A stretch of 64,000 bases of DNA, taken from Acephala macrosclerotiorum (Eukaryota > Ascomycota > Leotiomycetes > Helotiales > Mollisiaceae). The stretch lies in contig MU119209.1 of assembly GCA_014904845.1 (NCBI GenBank), positions 387,380 through 451,379 on the forward strand, in the 5' to 3' direction. Every line of letters starts with the position of its first letter. Positions within the stretch are counted from its first letter, which is position 1. Positions 3,276-48,756 of the stretch are shown here, in pieces. Both the position numbers and the translations under genes were made by a program. The notes under the pieces were generated by a model. It did no database searches. It saw only the letters and a program-made list of their open reading frames with translations, and was not told where the DNA came from.

Positions 3276-3430
3276 GCCGATTTGGCCGAGTGGTCTAAGG
3301 CGATGGTTTTAAGAGGGCTAACCCCCTTAAAAACACCATTATCGAAAGATGCGTGAGGTACGTGAAACCGTTCTTTGTTATACCAATACTTAAGTTAATC
3401 CTAAATCTAGTTCGAACCTCACAGTCGGCA
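3276..3430 (+). tRNA. tRNA-Leu(UAA) with two introns, one GT-AG type in the T arm
   Basis: Acceptor stem GCCGATT pairs with AGTCGGC (3423-3429), discriminator A3430. The D arm has TGGCCGAGTGG (A box). Anticodon stem is ATGGT/ACCAT; anticodon TAA is at 3310-3312. A 20-nt canonical intron (3314-3333) follows G37 and pairs with the anticodon. The type II variable arm has an ATC/GAT stem. The T stem GTGAG (3353-3357) is separated from TTCGAACCTCAC (3411-3422) by a 53-nt insert, 3358-3410, that starts GTACGT and ends CTAG. Excising it gives a perfect T arm, GTGAG-TTCGAAC-CTCAC, very like yeast tRNA-Leu(UAA). The B box is interrupted in the DNA, but the terminal AG of the insert recreates AGTTCGAACCT. 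A pseudogene is the main alternative. Confidence 0.85.
3358..3410 (+). other. Putative spliceosomal-type (GT-AG) intron in the T arm of tRNA-Leu
   Basis: 53 nt, donor GTACGT, acceptor CTAG, with TTAAT and CTAAA as possible branch sites, the latter very near the 3' end. It sits exactly between tRNA positions 53 and 54. Size and donor match introns of adjacent protein genes. Confidence 0.7.
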
Positions 3431-8452: not shown

Positions 8453-10586
8453 ATGTTTTCTTCTTCGAATGGAAGTAAGAAGCCTGTGCAGCAGGTGAGT
8501 CCGAAATATTTGGCTTTGAAGGAAGATAGGCTGATTGTGACCGCTTGTAGGAAATGGTTCAGGTCGGTCAGTTCACTCCCCCCTCGTTAGATACTGGAAG
8601 CCATGGAATGCCGACTATTTGTTTGTCTGGTTTGAAAGTTGCTGACATGCTCTTCAATTTCCAGAGAGATCAGAGTACGTCACGAATCCAATATGATACC
8701 ACAATCGAAAGTGCGGGGCAGAGGATGGACTTGAAATAGGGAATGCGCTGACTAGGAGCGTTCAGATCTGCGTCTCCTTTCTGGAAAAGCAGGACCTCTG
8801 AGGGGCGTAGAGACTCCTCTCCTATGAAGCCAAATCGGGATCCTGGATTAGTCGTGGGAGCTTCATATTCTCACGCGGATATGCTAAAGTTCGATAGCCT
8901 GTAAGTAAGAGTGGTTGGAGCATTGAACATTGCTCATTCGATGCAAGATCTATATCCTCCTCAGGTCGACCAAGGACACCTCCTTCATCATCCTCACAGA
9001 AAAATCGAAGTGATACCCCGCCTTTGCATAGAGGTTCGTCTGGTTTAGCATCCCCACCCAGAAGGACATACACAGAGTTCTTATCGACAACAAACAATGA
9101 TTGGAATGTGGAGGACGAGGGTGAGGACGATGATGATTATGGCTACGAAAACGACGATGGGGATGATTTTGGGTTACCTAGCATCTCGAGCATGAAGCGG
9201 AAAACGAAGAAAATACCTGAAGCGCGAAGTGCAGATTCTGAAGGCAACTTATCGCCATTTGGACACGGATTACAAGGCGGATTTGGTGGATTTGGTCCTC
9301 GAAGATTATCGAACAGTGCAGACATTGCGATAGAACGTCCTGCGCCGAGCTACCCTGTGGCGAAGAAGAGTGAGGGGAAGATATTACGTCCACAATATAA
9401 GGAAATCTTACGAGACCCTGCAAACTCGCTACACCTCATTAACCATCCTCCTATCCCACAAAATGCGTCATCAAAAGAGATTGATATTCACAATGCACGG
9501 ATAGGCAGGATCAATAAGTTCAAGAAGATACTTCAAGCCACTTCCGTTAATCTTGGGGATCTGAGAACTTTGGCATGGTCTGGAATACCAGAAGAAGTAC
9601 GGGCAATGACATGGCAACTGCTCCTGGGATATTTACCTACAAGCAGTGAGCGGAGAGTCTCCACACTTGAACGGAAGAGGAAAGAGTATTTGGATGGCGT
9701 GCGGCAGGCTTTCGAAAGAAGTGCAACCAGCACGGCACCTACTGGGAAAGTCAGAGGGCTTGATGAAGCGATTTGGCATCAAATCAGTATCGATGTCCCC
9801 AGGACGAACCCACATCTAGAGCTCTATAGCTACGAAGCTACGCAAAGATCATTGGAAAGAATCCTATATGTCTGGGCCGTACGGCATCCAGCAAGTGGCT
9901 ACGTACAAGGAATCAACGATCTTGTAACCCCGTTCTGGCAGGTATTCCTCGCCAGCTATATTACGGACTCGGACGTCGAAAGTGGGATGGACCCTGGACA
10001 ATTACCAAAAGCAGTCTTGGATGCTGTGGAAGCAGACTCGTTCTGGTGTCTAACGAAATTGCTAGATGGGATCCAAGACAATTATATCTTCGCCCAACCA
10101 GGAATCTTACGGCAAGTTGCTGCTCTCCACGACCTTACTGCAAGGATAGACGAGCCCCTTGCGAAGCATCTTGAACAAGAAGGCGTCGAGTTCATCCAAT
10201 TCAGCTTCCGGTGGATGAATTGTCTCCTCATGCGGGAGATCAGTGTCATGAACACTATTAGGATGTGGGACACTTACATGGTATGTTTTGAGTTTTTGAG
10301 TTTCTAAAATCAGAACTAACATATTCTATAGGCCGAGGAGCAAGGCTTCTCAGAATTCCACCTCTACGTCTGCGTGGCCTTTCTGGTAAAATGGTCAGAC
10401 AAATTACGAAAAATGGACTTCCAAGAAGTTATGATGTTCCTCCAAGCTCTGCCAACAAGAGACTGGACAGAGAAAGATATTGAGCTCCTCCTTAGCGAAG
10501 CTTTCATCTGGCAATCACTGTTCAAGGGATCTTCATCTCATCTCAAAGGAGGGTCGAGCCACACCCCCTCGAATGCTGGTTCATGA
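8453..10586 (+). CDS. GYP1: TBC-domain Rab GTPase-activating protein, Gyp1-like
   Basis: Firm exons: 8766-8900, 8948-10280 and 10332-10586. Proposed first exons: 8453-8494, 8551-8566 and 8665-8674, which join in phase with standard introns but are less certain; total 596 residues. The TBC domain spans roughly residues 270-560: IPEEVRAMTWQLLLGYLP, the arginine-finger motif ISIDVPRTN near 346-352 and the glutamine-finger motif GYVQGIND near 385-390, so the dual-finger catalytic site is intact. Gyp1 acts on Ypt1 at the Golgi. The N terminus is serine-rich and acidic. No ATG exists at 9024, where the open frame begins with TTG; coding clearly continues upstream. Family certain, exact paralogue likely. 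Confidence 0.85.
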
Positions 10587-17606: not shown

Positions 17607-17705
17607 TGAACAGAGTGGGACTCGAACCCACGCCCCTTTCGAGACCAGAAAATGTTATTAAGGTTAACCTTAATCTGGCGCCATAACCAACTCGGCCATC
17701 TGTCC
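17607..17705 (-). tRNA. tRNA-Leu(AAG) with canonical intron
   Basis: Minus strand. Acceptor GGACAGA pairs with TCTGTTC (one G-U), discriminator A. A box TGGCCGAGTTGG, anticodon stem CCAGA/TCTGG, anticodon AAG (reads CUU). A 17-nt intron (17651-17667) follows G37. The long variable arm and an uninterrupted T arm GTGGG-TTCGAGT-CCCAC are present, so this gene is the normal contrast to the two tRNA genes with T-arm inserts. Confidence 0.93.
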
Positions 17706-17982: not shown

Positions 17983-18023
17983 TAGGCTCCAAGATAAACT
18001 CGGGGACATGAACTCTAGAGAAA

Positions 18024-18156
18024 CTCTCTGACGGGGAGTCTATTTTATATTAGTTTATGCTCATGAGTTTCGATTCAGAAGTGCTTACCGAACCCCGATC
18101 TCCCGCGTTTTATCTGTTATGACAAGCGGAAATCATGACCGTTAGACCATCAAAGA
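18024..18156 (-). tRNA. tRNA-Asp(GUC) with two introns, one GT-AG type in the T loop
   Basis: Minus strand. Acceptor TCTTTGA pairs fully with TCAGAGA (one T-G), discriminator G as in other Asp tRNAs. D arm TGGTCTAACGG, anticodon stem TCCGC/GCGGG, anticodon GTC. A 12-nt canonical intron (18108-18119) follows A37. The T stem CGGGG and TTCG (18089-18097) are separated from ACTCCCCG (18032-18039) by a 49-nt insert, 18040-18088, that starts GTAAGC and ends AAATAG with CTAAT 14 nt before its end. Excision gives CGGGG-TTCGACT-CCCCG, a perfect T arm with A58. AGATCGGGGTTC and CCCCGTC match yeast tRNA-Asp. The B box is split in the DNA, so expression needs to be shown. Confidence 0.85.
18040..18088 (-). 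other. Putative spliceosomal-type (GT-AG) intron in the T loop of tRNA-Asp
   Basis: 49 nt, donor GTAAGC, branch-like ACTAATA, acceptor ATAG, between tRNA positions 57 and 58. By motif content it is indistinguishable from the protein-gene introns of this window. Confidence 0.75.
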
Positions 18157-18185
18157 TATGTGCTAGTTATTGTTAGGCTTTTGTG

Positions 18186-18199
18186 TATTTAAATCTATA
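18186..18199 (-). promoter_or_regulatory. TATA-like Pol III upstream element of tRNA-Asp
   Basis: TATAGATTTAAATA on the minus strand, 30-43 nt upstream of the tRNA 5' end; the identical 14-mer precedes both tRNA-like copies near 48.4 and 48.7 kb. Confidence 0.65.
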
Positions 18200-23550: not shown

Positions 23551-25432
23551 ATGTCAATCGTCATTAACAAAATTCTCGCGGCATCTCCCAATACTGAGCG
23601 CGGTAGGCCAACACAGCTCTCCGCAGACTCGAAAGGAGAGCGCCTGGCTTATGCGGTACGTACTATTGTACCAAACTCTAGAGGATATTCTAATGGTCAC
23701 ATAGTCTGGCAAATCCATATTCGTCCGATCCATTGACGACCCCTCAATCAGCAAGCAATACACCGGCCACACAGCCCAAACTTCAGTCGCCCGATTCTCC
23801 CCCTCAGGATTCTACGTCGCGTCCGGAGATGTTTCCGGTGCCGTGAAAGTGTGGGACTCGATCGAAGCTGTCAATACAAAGGGCGAGTACCACATTATCT
23901 CCGGTCGAATCAATGATATTGCCTGGGATGGAGATTCTCAACGCATCATTGCAGTCGGAGATGGACGAGAACGATTTGGACATTGCATAACGGCAGATAG
24001 CGGGAATTCGGTGGGAGAAATCAGTGGGCATTCTTCGATTATCAACTCAGTTTCTATACGTCAGCAGAGGCCTTTACGGGCTGCGACGGGGGCGGATGAT
24101 AATTCGGTGGTGTTTCTGCATGGTGCGCCGTTCAAGTTCAATGATAAGATTGCGGGGTTGCATAAGGGATATGCGAACGGAGTGGCTTTCTCGCCGGATG
24201 GGAGCCAGCTGGTTAGTGTAGGTGCTGATAGACGCATTCAGCTTTATGATGGGAAGACGGGAGAGGCTACGAAGCAGATTGGAGAGGGTGAACACAAGGG
24301 ATCCATATTTGGAGTATCTTGGGCGCAGGACTCGAAGCGATTTGTTACTTGCAGTGCTGACCAGACGGTCAAGGTATGGGATGTGGATGCTGGAAAAGCT
24401 GTTCAGACCTGGAGGTTTGGTGACGAAGGTGTTGTCAGTGTTCCTGATCACCAAGTAGGAGTTGTATGGCCGGCTGGACGAAGTGATGGTTTGATCATCA
24501 GCTTGAACTTAGCTGGCGATCTGAGCTACCTCATTGAGGGAAATCAGACACCAACGAAGGTCGTCCAAGGACACAACAAGAGTGTAACTGCTTTGGGATC
24601 AAGTTCCGGAAATAAGGGCCAGACATTCTGGACTGGAAGCTTCGATGGTAGGGTCTGTGCTTGGGATGCTGCAACGGGCGTTGGACATGCAGTAGAGGGA
24701 GAAAGCCATAAGAACCAGGTTACGGCATTTCAGACTACTCAAGAAAGAGCATATTCCGTAGGATGGGACGACACACTTCGAATTTCCGATGTATCGCAAA
24801 AGACTTTCCTTGGAGATACCGTCAAGCTGTCGGCACAGCCTAAAGGACTTGCTTCTGCAGAAGGTCGGCTCTTCGCTGCGACAGTCTCAGGAATCGACAT
24901 CTTCTTGAAGGATGACCTCGTGGGCACATTCCCGACGAAGAACTTCACACCCACAGCTATTGCAGCCTATGGCTCAACCCTCGCTGTCGGTACTGACTCC
25001 AATATCGTGCAGATCTATACTGTCGATAGCAGTCACAAGTTGACTCCTAAGGAGAAGCTTACAAAATCTACTTCACAAATTACGGCCCTCTCTTTCTCTC
25101 CCGATGGGTCGCTACTCGCTGTTGGTAACTCTTCGGGCAAGATTGTTGCGTACGAAACCAGCTCCTGGGAAGTCAAGACTGATAGATGGTCGGCACACAC
25201 AGCTCGTGTCACATCCATAGCTTGGAATGAGGACGGTACCTTGGCTGCGAGTGGTGCTCTCGATACCAACGTCCATGTCTGGAGTCTGAAGTCACCTGGA
25301 AAGAGAATAAAGGCGCCGAACGCGCATAAGGATGGTGTCAATGGAGTCTCATGGGTTAATGGCGGAAAGCAGGTCGCTAGCACAGGTGGAGATGCTGCTC
25401 TGAAGCTCTGGGATGTTTCGGGGATTGAGTGA
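23551..25432 (+). CDS. AIP1: Actin-interacting protein 1, WD40 protein
   Basis: Exons 23551-23655 and 23705-25432 with a 49-nt intron (CTAAT branch site); 610 residues, the usual size for Aip1. At least ten WD40-type repeats are visible, for example VARFSPSGFYVASGDVSGAVKVWD, GVAFSPDGSQLVSVGADRRIQLYD and SWAQDSKRFVTCSADQTVKVWD segments, forming the two seven-bladed propellers of the family. The N terminus (LAASPNTERGRPTQLS) is the conserved Aip1 start. It works with cofilin to disassemble actin filaments at cortical patches. Nothing unusual. Confidence 0.93.
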
Positions 25433-30420: not shown

Positions 30421-33400
30421 TCAGACATCCATCATCTCAGCATCGTCAGCCAGGAGCTCATCAGCTGGTCCCCAGTCGCCTTCGAAGACGGTCGCACCCG
30501 CACGGCGTCGAGGCTCAACCCATTGCAGACCTCCAGCTGAAAGAACTTGGTTGATGTCTGGCCGCATTTCAGGATCCGGATTCATCATAGCCCGAACTAG
30601 ATGGTCCAAAGACCACTCATGCTCGCTGTTCTTCATGAACGGTGGTGCCTTATGAAGCTCGCCTCTTCTCAATGTACCAAAGAGGTTTCCAGCATCATGG
30701 GAGAGAGATTTCCCAGAACCGCCAGCATTTCTCTTCCGGCTACCCAGGGTTGGTGAACCAAAGCCGGCTTCGAAATCGTCACCGGAGAAGGCGGTGTCCA
30801 TGGCAGTATCACTGTCTTCATCAATGACCATGCCAGTGGCATCTCTTGGCAAAACGCTTTCGCTGCTCCAGGTAAGGCTGGGAACATCGCTAGGGTCGCC
30901 AGAGCGGAGTTTCATCCAGGAAATGCCATTTTCAGGAAGTCTTACATTGGCTGCAATCTCGAGCATGATGATGCCAAAGGAGAAGATGTCTGCTGGTCTA
31001 TCGAAATGGCCTTTGAGGATTTCTGGAGCAATATACTCGCGGTCGCCCTCTCCATCGATTCCAGGCGGAGCAGGACAATTGCTGGCGAGGCCAAAGTCGG
31101 CAATCTTGAGCACGCCTTCAAATGTGATAAGAAGATTCGCAGGCTTCAAGTCCAGATGAATAAAACCCATGTCATGGATGTGCTTCAGACCCTATGATAC
31201 ATGTTAGTTGTGATAATAAGCTAAGAATAGAACTAACTAACCTTGCCCAATTCAAGTGCAATTTTCCAGATGCGGAAGTCATCCAAACGTCCCTTATTAC
31301 CGGCAATCTTGAGGAAGATGTCCAGACTACCTTCATCACAGTATTCGGTTTGGATGTACAAATGGTTGTTGTGCTCCCAGCTCTCAAAGAAAGTCACGAC
31401 GTGATCAGATTTTCCAAGTGCTTTAAGCACACGGACTTCCTGCAGTTTCCGATTACGGTCCCTGTGCCCGATATAAGGCTGTCGTGACTTTTTGACTGCG
31501 AAGACACGCTCCAAAGTGGATGACGGTGATTGCGATTTAGGGGTGAAGCTAGATGTGTTGAAGAACAGCTGGGCTGCATTGGAGCTCGGCGTAGTCTTGG
31601 TAACTCGATAGACTTGAGAGAATTCTCCGCTACCAATAATCTCAGCTTTGTCAAACCGAGCAGTGAGAGAATCATCGACCTCGACCACTGCGAAGTTGCT
31701 GATTGGTGTTGTACTGAGACGTCGATCTCCGTTTTTTGGGAAGTAGTCTCGGCCTGCTGTTGGTGTCGCTGGCGGGGGCATTGAAGCTCGAGTCCTCGCA
31801 GCTGGACCATCTCGGGGGTTGGAGATAGAGAGGCCACTAGGATCAGGAGGCAACATGCTGTCTTGAGGTGTATGCGGAGACAGTCTCTCGATGAAATCTA
31901 TGCGGTCCAACGGGCTGGCTGGAGCCACGTGACTAACTTTAGCAAATCCGGGCTTGGTTGAAGGAGTAGTAAAGGGTGGAGCAGTCAGAGGCTTTGGCAT
32001 CATCGGTACTGGTGACTGCATGGCTTTGGCACGCTCACTCCGAGTTCTGCCAAATGACACTGTCGGATCTGAAGACTTCTGAAGGCCTCGAACATGTGCC
32101 ACGGTAGGAGAGTCGTTAAGATCGCCAGACCCATCGCTCTCCCCCTCGTTTTCTGCAATTGGACTTGTGAAGGGGTTCAACTTACTGCTCGTTCTTTGGT
32201 GCTTTTTCGTCAACCCATATCCAACAGCTGACACGGAAGCCGGGAAATTTCGATGGCTGCTGGGGCTTCCATTGTACAGCTCATGCGCCAGAGCTTGCTT
32301 TGTTGGAGTTGGTGGAAGGTCAAAGTCACCGCTCGATTGACTACCAGCTTTGGCATCTGGTGATCCTCCAGCATCATCTCCATCGATACTCAAAAAGCTA
32401 CCACGTCTGACCAGACCACGACCTGGAAATCCACCGCCGAACACGCTGCCTCCATTACCGAAAGTTCCCTGAGCTGGTGTGGTTCCGTGCAAGTTGAATG
32501 GCGTTGATGGTGTACCGAATGAATGTCGAACATGTCGAGCCTTCAAAATTGCACTGCCTGGAATTGGTGCTGGGTACGTGGCGAAGACATTGCTTTGCTT
32601 CTTGCAAGGGGTATCTGGAACAGCTTTGCCACGATGCATTTGAGGCTCCTCAGGGTTCTTATTCATCTTTGATATCAAGCCCGTAGTCGCAAATGCTTCA
32701 GGAAGTGGCTTAACAGATTTGTAGTTTTGGGGTGTTGCAAAGCCCTCATCGCCACCAGAGCTCAGATTTGCTGTGAACGGTCTCAATGCACCAACAGGCA
32801 ACGACTTGGAGAAGTCCAATTTTGCTCTCGGCTTTTCCCCAAAGTGGACAGGAACGTGCGTCGGTGAATCATCCACAATGCTACCATTTGACGATGAAGT
32901 CGTCATTGTCCGTGAAAGTGGATGAGGTTGGTGCGGTGGTGGATTCATGAGATGGTTGGAAGGATTTGGGAGACTTCCTTGGTTGGAGAAAGGACTGTCT
33001 CTCGGCATTGGTGGCATAAATTGGTCCAACGACAATCGTGGCCGATTCTTCGATTGAACAGGTGTTGACACATCGGAGGCTGCATGAGACGAATTAGCCA
33101 ATTGCTGAGCTGCAAGAGCCTGAGCAGCAGCTCTTCGTCCCCACGAGGTTTTCTCGCCATGTCTTTGCTGTAATGTTGACTTTCTCAAAGAGGATGATCT
33201 GCGTGGCATTGATGACGTAAAGGCTAACGGGTTGTCGGATGTAACAGATGCAGTTGATAATTCGTACTCGTGATTTGTATCATCATGGATTTCGAAATGC
33301 GATGAGGTTGGTCCATGGTCGAAAACATTGAAGTCCTGGCCAAAGCTGGCCGATCCGTGGAGACTTCTTCTCTTCGCAACTGGGCTTCCCAAGCTTGCTT

Positions 33401-48392: not shown

Positions 48393-48638
48393 TTTGTATT
48401 TGTGATTGGTTGACGAGGATTTGTTTATTTAAATCTATACTCTTGTTTAAATTTGTGAACTTTATGAAATTATACATACCGCGCGCGACAAAAGACATCG
48501 GTCAAATCAAAGGCCAGCAGCCTTAATCAAAACAAAAAGCTGATTTTAGTAATAAACGCTAGAGCAAAAAAAAAAAGTGTCCCATGTTCGGGAAATGTAA
48601 ACTACTTGTTACCAAGCGGCCAGCATTTCCCTAGGACG

Positions 48639-48709
48639 AACCTCTCTAGGAATCGAACCTAGGTCTGGGGGTATTGATACCGACTATGCTACCACTGCAC
48701 CAAGAGATC
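48639..48709 (-). pseudogene. Decayed tRNA-like sequence, copy 2
   Basis: Minus strand, 71 nt. Acceptor GATCTCT pairs with AGAGGTT with two G-U pairs; D arm TGGTGCAGTGGTAGCA; T arm CTAGG-TTCGATT-CCTAG is perfect, but the anticodon stem does not pair (GTCGG against ACCCC) and position 33 is not T. The upstream element (48743-48756) and CAACCAATCA are kept. It resembles elongator tRNA-Met in its D arm; identity cannot be assigned. Confidence 0.6.
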
Positions 48710-48756
48710 TTTGTTCTTTTGATTGGTTGACGAGAAAGCGCTTATTTAAATCTATA

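Follow-up and report, generated by a model that had tools for sequence, protein, structure and literature searches.

The 49-nt insert that interrupts the T-loop sequence of a tRNA-Asp(GUC) gene from the fungus Acephala macrosclerotiorum is very probably a U2-type spliceosomal intron in a working nuclear tRNA gene, and about one-third of the apparently intact tRNA genes examined appear to carry such introns. This explanation is drawn from a single fungal genome (69.66 Mb, 778 contigs), in which the gene lies within an analyzed stretch of 64,000 nucleotides, hereafter the window. The protein of the AIP1 gene in the window (23705-25432) is 91% identical to that of Phialocephala subalpina and 88% identical to that of Mollisia scopiformis, which places the host near Mollisiaceae, Helotiales.

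The tRNA-Asp(GUC) gene occupies positions 18156-18024 of the minus strand and, as read from its sequence, holds two inserts, a 12-nt canonical intron and the 49-nt GT-AG insert. Exon 1 (tRNA positions 1-37; 18156-18120) is followed by the canonical intron at 37/38 (18119-18108), exon 2 (positions 38-57; 18107-18089) with the 3' end CGGGGTTCG, the 49-nt insert (18088-18040), which separates G57 from A58 in the T loop, and exon 3 (positions 58-73; 18039-18024), which reads ACTCCCCGTCAGAGAG. The insert has a GTAAGC donor, a CTAAT element whose branch A is located 10 nt from the 3' end, and an ATAG acceptor. Excision yields an acceptor stem of 7/7 pairs, a T stem of 5/5 pairs, the loop TTCGACT and G as the last base. 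The first-pass annotation had claimed an insert of this kind at 57/58, a separate canonical intron and the restoration of both stems with a G discriminator, and all of these are present as claimed; its span of 18032-18097 does contain the insert but sets the boundaries a few bases too wide. The insert had also been likened to the introns of protein genes in the window, and three of these indeed share its length and signals: a 49-nt intron of the AIP1 orthologue (23656-23704, plus strand; GTACGT...CTAAT...ATAG), a 51-nt intron in a gene that we take to encode a TBC-domain protein (10281-10331, plus strand; GTATGT...CTAAC...ATAG) and a 50-nt intron in a presumed Wee1-like kinase gene (31192-31241, minus strand; GTTAGT...CTAAC...ATAG), with frame continuity in the latter two. 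Neither ARAGORN nor the Rfam tRNA model reported either of the two split tRNA genes of the window, Asp and Leu(UAA). The tRNA-Leu(AAG) gene of the window (17607-17705) is ordinary.

A DNA search of the genome returned, besides the window gene, three complete tRNA-Asp genes and a degenerate fragment. The exon bases are identical across all four full genes (72/72), and the T loop is split in two of them and uninterrupted in the other two (L005 and L006, on contigs C207 and C720). In the second split gene (L004, contig C5), a 50-nt insert occupies the same base and reads GCAAGT...CTAAT...ATAG; its GC-AG donor matches the consensus in all other respects and is a minor form of U2-type introns. Aligned over 47 bases, the two inserts match at 36, and the alignment has 5 gap columns. 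Canonical-site introns of 16, 14 and 19 nt are found in L004, L005 and L006, respectively. Because a second gene is cut at the same base and two genes with identical exons lack the insert, the insert is not a product of chance. The sister genes without it also support the spliceosome-type reading proposed in the first-pass annotation, which is likewise consistent with splice signals kept despite insert divergence, the GC-AG variant, a boundary without a bulge-helix-bulge (BHB) and 24 similar introns elsewhere.

The Asp insert is one case among many and not a lone oddity. We modelled 25 mRNA-type inserts, at most two per gene, in 19 tRNA genes for ten amino acids, including both Met types, which we distinguished by presumed resemblance to initiator and elongator forms. 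The split genes were recovered from weak or broken tRNA matches in the same genome; their exons were read by eye before being checked, and the position numbers were assigned by hand. The inserts represent 14 tRNA/site combinations at 13 different positions, none of them in the anticodon arm. Single inserts are found at 57/58 in two Asp genes, 52/53 in Glu(UUC), 9/10 in Lys(UUU), 19/20 in two Gln(UUG) genes, 13/14 in Thr(AGU), 47/48 in Trp, 23/24 in initiator Met, about 16/17 in elongator Met (L109), 52/53 in Arg(UCG) and 53/54 in Leu(UAA). Three Ser(GCU) genes are all split at 6/7, and two of the three are split again at 49/50. Each of four Lys(CUU) genes has three introns: one insert at 55/56, another at 64/65 and a canonical intron. 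Nine of the 19 split genes also have a canonical 37/38 intron, among them the tRNA-Leu(UAA) gene of the window (3276-3430, plus strand), in which a 20-nt canonical intron (3314-3333) is accompanied by a 53-nt GT-AG intron (3358-3410; GTACGT...TTAAT...CTAG) between T-stem position 53 and T-loop position 54. For the split Trp gene (L046), an alternative insert beginning GTGTATG was discarded because it would take two exon bases; the reading GTATGT...ATAG yields the sequence of the unsplit Trp gene L029 exactly.

Which machinery would remove these inserts? All 25 are 47-59 nt long; 24 have GT-AG ends, and one has GC-AG ends (GCAAGT). A CTRAY element whose A lies 9-16 nt from the insert's 3' end occurs in 23 of the 25, compared with a mean of 1.3 and a maximum of 6 over 2000 rounds of shuffled insert interiors. 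The exceptions in the tested interval are Leu(UAA), which has TTAAT, and the second intron of one Lys gene (L106), which has no such element. In length and signals, the inserts match the protein-gene introns of the window, a small reference set (n=3). One alternative is that the tRNA endonuclease removes them as ectopic introns, as it does in red algae, nucleomorphs and Archaea, where non-canonical sites and several introns per tRNA are described (PMC4090602 and PMC8450103). Canonical introns in some of the same genes are consistent with this alternative, as is the ability of the eukaryotic enzyme to act in the absence of a BHB, with the body of the tRNA as its point of reference (PMC4090602, section 5). 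However, none of the 25 inserts has the 4-bp central helix of a BHB at its boundary, although the chance expectation for that helix is 0.02 per insert and some shifted registers give four pairs. Moreover, endonuclease removal would leave the narrow lengths, the GT/GC-AG ends and the CTRAY site unexplained; we know of no role for any of them in the endonuclease pathway. We therefore regard ectopic endonuclease cleavage as extremely unlikely. Another alternative is that the inserts belong to a mobile introner-like family that arrived recently in tRNA genes. Introner families are known in some fungi, and the inserts occupy many sites within one genome. However, a search with the 25 joined inserts returned only their own 21 places, which indicates no repeat family at that sensitivity, and the same-site inserts of paralogues are strongly diverged. 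We give this scenario almost no weight. Self-splicing group I and group II introns are far longer than the inserts, which at 47-59 nt are too short for a group I/II ribozyme core. U2-type spliceosomal introns thus seem to be the best explanation of the inserts.

Are the split genes working genes? After excision, the acceptor stem pairs at 7/7 in 19 of 19 split genes, and the T stem pairs at 5/5 in 18; the exception is Thr (4/5), whose mature sequence equals that of its unsplit sister. ARAGORN assigned the expected amino acid and anticodon to all 21 modelled mature sequences, which comprise the 19 split genes and the two unsplit Asp genes. Unsplit sisters match the spliced sequence exactly for Asp (72/72), Trp (L046 versus L029) and Thr (L071 versus L016), and the second Ser(GCU) intron is cleanly missing, at the predicted joint, from one of three paralogues (L101). 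The exons are identical at 72-73 of 73 bases within the Asp copies and within the Lys(CUU) copies. Eighteen paralogous pairs (Asp 1, Lys 12, Ser 4, Gln 1) share an insert site; within them, 0.62-0.91 of the aligned insert bases agree, with 0-19 gap columns. In 16 of the 18 pairs, no more than one of 300 shuffles equals or exceeds the full-length insert alignment, and the alignment of the insert interior (minus the first 6 and last 20 bases) beats shuffles at the 5% level in 8 pairs. These scores do not fit the notion that the inserts are saturated; they are instead strongly diverged. Because they are diverged yet unsaturated, their age is uncertain.

The exon differences between copies are compensated. 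The three Ser(GCU) copies show 4, 6 and 2 differences in 81 bases, all within the pairs 28-42, 29-41 and 30-40, and each pair is altered on both sides and thereby compensated. The split initiator Met gene (L077) differs from its unsplit counterpart (L030) at only two bases, which form pair 6-67 (U-A for G-C). The split Gln copies have three differing bases, two in pair 7-66 (A-U/G-C) and one in the T stem, where pairing is kept (C-G/U-G). Exon identity could partly result from gene conversion, but the compensated stems argue against gene conversion as the whole story. Judged from these patterns, the split genes look alive rather than decayed.

It could nevertheless be argued that the split genes are dead copies and that the tRNAs are made from uninterrupted genes. 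The genome does offer unsplit counterparts with the same anticodon for Asp, Trp, Thr, initiator Met and Arg(UCG), as well as decayed or partial copies (L007, L049, L075 and L118). However, the exons of the split genes are identical or compensated despite the divergence of the inserts, whose splice signals are kept, and for seven anticodons, both of those for Lys among them, we found no intact unsplit copy. In our incomplete census, all 13 apparently intact copies found for these seven are split: Glu(UUC) 1, Lys(UUU) 1, Lys(CUU) 4, Gln(UUG) 2, Ser(GCU) 3, elongator Met 1 and Leu(UAA) 1. The expression of only other genes is therefore not a general escape, and we consider it very unlikely that the split genes are dead. 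Overall, 39 further loci are apparently intact and unsplit, so 19 of 58 genes are split in this incomplete census, which does not place Phe, Tyr, Cys, Gly(GCC), Val(AAC) and other tRNAs. The Rfam search covered the best-scoring 63 of 2302 candidates and performs best on unsplit tRNAs without a canonical intron; divergent unsplit copies, or unsplit copies with a canonical intron, may escape it. A search with query fungal tRNAs for the remaining isotypes gave only four matches and missed known split genes.

Several loci were left out of the intron counts, namely L102, L118, L075, L007, L049 and a Glu 3' fragment (C96:184909). L102 (C17:201500-201790, minus strand) is a decaying Met-like sequence with a mismatched acceptor and no T8; it keeps a GT...CTAAC...TAG insert near 6/7. 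L118 is a truncated Ser(GCU)-like sequence that lacks the 5' half and the second intron. L075 (C13:103628-103684, minus strand) is an inverted partial copy of the split tRNA-Thr gene, comprising the intron end and exon 2, and is located about 240 bp from that gene. A further locus (L045), to which ARAGORN assigned the anticodon CTA, was rejected as a suppressor because it reads as Gln with a canonical intron.

The flanking sequences bear on the polymerase. The tRNA-Asp(GUC) gene of the window is preceded by the TATA element TATAGATTTAAATACAC (18183-18199, minus strand), a type of element found before most of the tRNA genes examined. Matches of at least 13/17 to TATAGATTTAAATAAGC, a consensus drawn by eye from the same tRNA genes, precede 43 of 46 tRNA genes, compared with 3 of 920 shuffles. 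Of the 16 split genes whose upstream sequence extends to at least 60 nt, 14 are preceded by such a match; this count omits both Gln genes and elongator Met, whose upstream sequences are short; weak elements are found for one Lys gene (L103, 11/17) and Glu (12/17). Downstream, a run of five or more T residues lies within 5-43 nt of the 3' end in 19 of 19 split genes, and no such run occurs inside their mRNA-type introns. The TATA element and the T-runs point to Pol III. Alternatively, the introns could be spliceosomal in genes that Pol II transcribes as small spliced non-coding RNAs, which would later be processed to tRNA. The action of the spliceosome is usually coupled to Pol II, and the internal B box is cut by the intron in the two Asp and four Lys(CUU) genes, both of which favor this route. 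However, split and unsplit genes have the same TATA element at similar distances, followed by T-runs, and in the Glu, Arg and Leu genes the B box is regained in the DNA at the 3' splice junction, where the 3' splice site supplies its first base or bases. Furthermore, U6 of fission yeast is a Pol III transcript with an mRNA-type intron (PMC10484740). We consider transcription by Pol II unlikely.

How would Pol III recognize genes whose internal B box is cut? In all four Lys(CUU) genes, GGCTCAATTCC overlaps the 3' end with a B-box score of 9.8. All four tRNA-Asp genes are followed by CTCTAGAGTTCATG, which has only these four exact sites genome-wide, and by a small hairpin before the T-run. Their common 3' trailer includes a B-box-like element, AGTTCATGTCC in the window gene (18004-18014, minus strand). 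This box, AGTTCATG(T/C)CC, is present in split and unsplit Asp genes alike and scores 7.3 in three of them; the version in L004, AGTTCAACTCG, scores 9.8. A candidate B box within the Asp intron, GAATCGAAACTC, was rejected because it does not exceed the broken internal box (2.7 by the B-box matrix) and because the second Asp intron lacks it. By the same scan, downstream B boxes with scores of 13.3-15.7 were found in 4 of 31 unsplit genes (two Trp and two His) and in the split Trp gene. The two tRNA-His genes (L034 and L037) have a strong B box (GGTTTGATTCC or GGTTCAATTCC) 29-30 nt downstream, and the tRNA-Trp genes (L028, L029 and L046) have one that overlaps the 3' end. The unsplit examples contradict a restriction of downstream B boxes to genes with a cut B box, and the sequence patterns suggest at most a weak link between the downstream box and B-box interruption.

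Other sequences in this genome resemble these Pol III signals. The window contains a tandem pair of tRNA-like elements (48423-48756, minus strand) whose anticodon arms are degenerate. Each follows a TATA element, in one case exactly TATAGATTTAAATAAGC, and has a long 3' tail ending in a T-run; the pair may represent a small family of Pol III RNAs or a tRNA-derived repeat. The 17-mer TATAGATTTAAATAAGC has 82 exact sites genome-wide and 318 sites at two or fewer mismatches, compared with 233 for a reversed-pattern control. Most of the exact sites lie outside the tRNA genes recognized in this analysis and possibly mark dispersed 5S or other Pol III genes.

We propose the following pathway for the split genes. 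Pol III would transcribe each gene from the upstream TATA element and the internal boxes to the T-run; in the Asp and Lys(CUU) genes, the B-box-like element just downstream may substitute for the cut B box. The spliceosome would then excise the 47-59-nt GT-AG intron or introns as lariats, with exact joining of the exons. The restored pre-tRNA would fold and be trimmed by RNase P and tRNase Z. Finally, the tRNA endonuclease would remove the canonical 37/38 intron where one is present; we place this step after the spliceosome because the eukaryotic enzyme uses a ruler mechanism, outlined in section 5 of PMC4090602, that takes the body of the folded tRNA as its reference. On this basis, the making of essential tRNAs in A. 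macrosclerotiorum probably needs the mRNA-splicing machine. To our knowledge, the spliceosome is not known to act on tRNAs.

We also consider it likely that all Lys, Glu(UUC), Gln(UUG), Ser(GCU), Leu(UAA) and elongator Met tRNAs of this fungus have no source other than Pol III genes interrupted by one or two mRNA-type introns and that some of them need two unrelated splicing machines. The introns would have entered many times and been kept while diverging, cut B boxes would be backed by downstream boxes, and translation would depend obligately on the spliceosome beyond mRNA. The trait may be shared by a whole clade within Helotiales.

Spliceosomal introns are usually considered to belong to Pol II genes, apart from rare exceptions such as U6 and rDNA, and eukaryotic tRNA introns are usually ascribed to the tRNA endonuclease alone; here, both kinds of intron are found, together in nine genes. 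Does the spliceosome routinely work on uncapped Pol III transcripts? How did introns repeatedly enter a 73-nt RNA of known structure? The avoidance of the anticodon arm hints at a structural rule, for example reverse splicing. Do such genes in other genomes escape standard tRNA finders? Among the matches listed in our literature search, which extended to few subscription papers and little of bioRxiv, none described tRNA genes with spliceosomal introns. As far as we found, the intron type is known, and its repeated home in essential tRNA genes, sometimes beside canonical introns, is new.

The inserts can be compared with several known systems. Spliceosomal introns occur in the nuclear rDNA of ascomycetes, which thus also provides mRNA-type introns in a non-coding RNA gene, but these are Pol I genes and not tRNA genes. 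Canonical tRNA introns, which are located at 37/38 and removed by the tRNA endonuclease, differ from the inserts, none of which lies at 37/38, in place and signals and presumably also in the enzyme. The non-canonical introns of nucleomorphs, Cyanidioschyzon and Crenarchaeota likewise lie in the D and T arms (PMC4090602). According to section 5 of that review, the Guillardia nucleomorph has up to three introns per tRNA gene, with inserts of 3-24 nt, and BHB motifs direct intron removal in C. merolae and Archaea. The same section (Yoshihisa 2014) regards genes with D- or T-arm inserts as likely pseudogenes in eukaryotes other than nucleomorphs and one red alga. Nowhere does the review use the word spliceosome. 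The available part of a paper on intron borders (PMC11782384) does not mention introns of the present kind. The tRNAscan-SE 2.0 paper (PMC8450103) states that a eukaryotic tRNA gene has no more than one intron, a limit exceeded by the Lys(CUU) genes with three introns each. A further likeness is the intron of U6 snRNA genes of fission yeast (PMC10484740) and others, which is likewise an mRNA-type intron in a short fungal RNA gene transcribed by Pol III. U6 itself is uninterrupted in the present genome, in which four matches above the cut-off (contigs C37, C261, C379 and C8) cover the whole model within 99-104 bases. Moreover, U6 is a part of the spliceosome, whereas in A. macrosclerotiorum the introns reside in 19 tRNA genes for ten amino acids at 13 positions.
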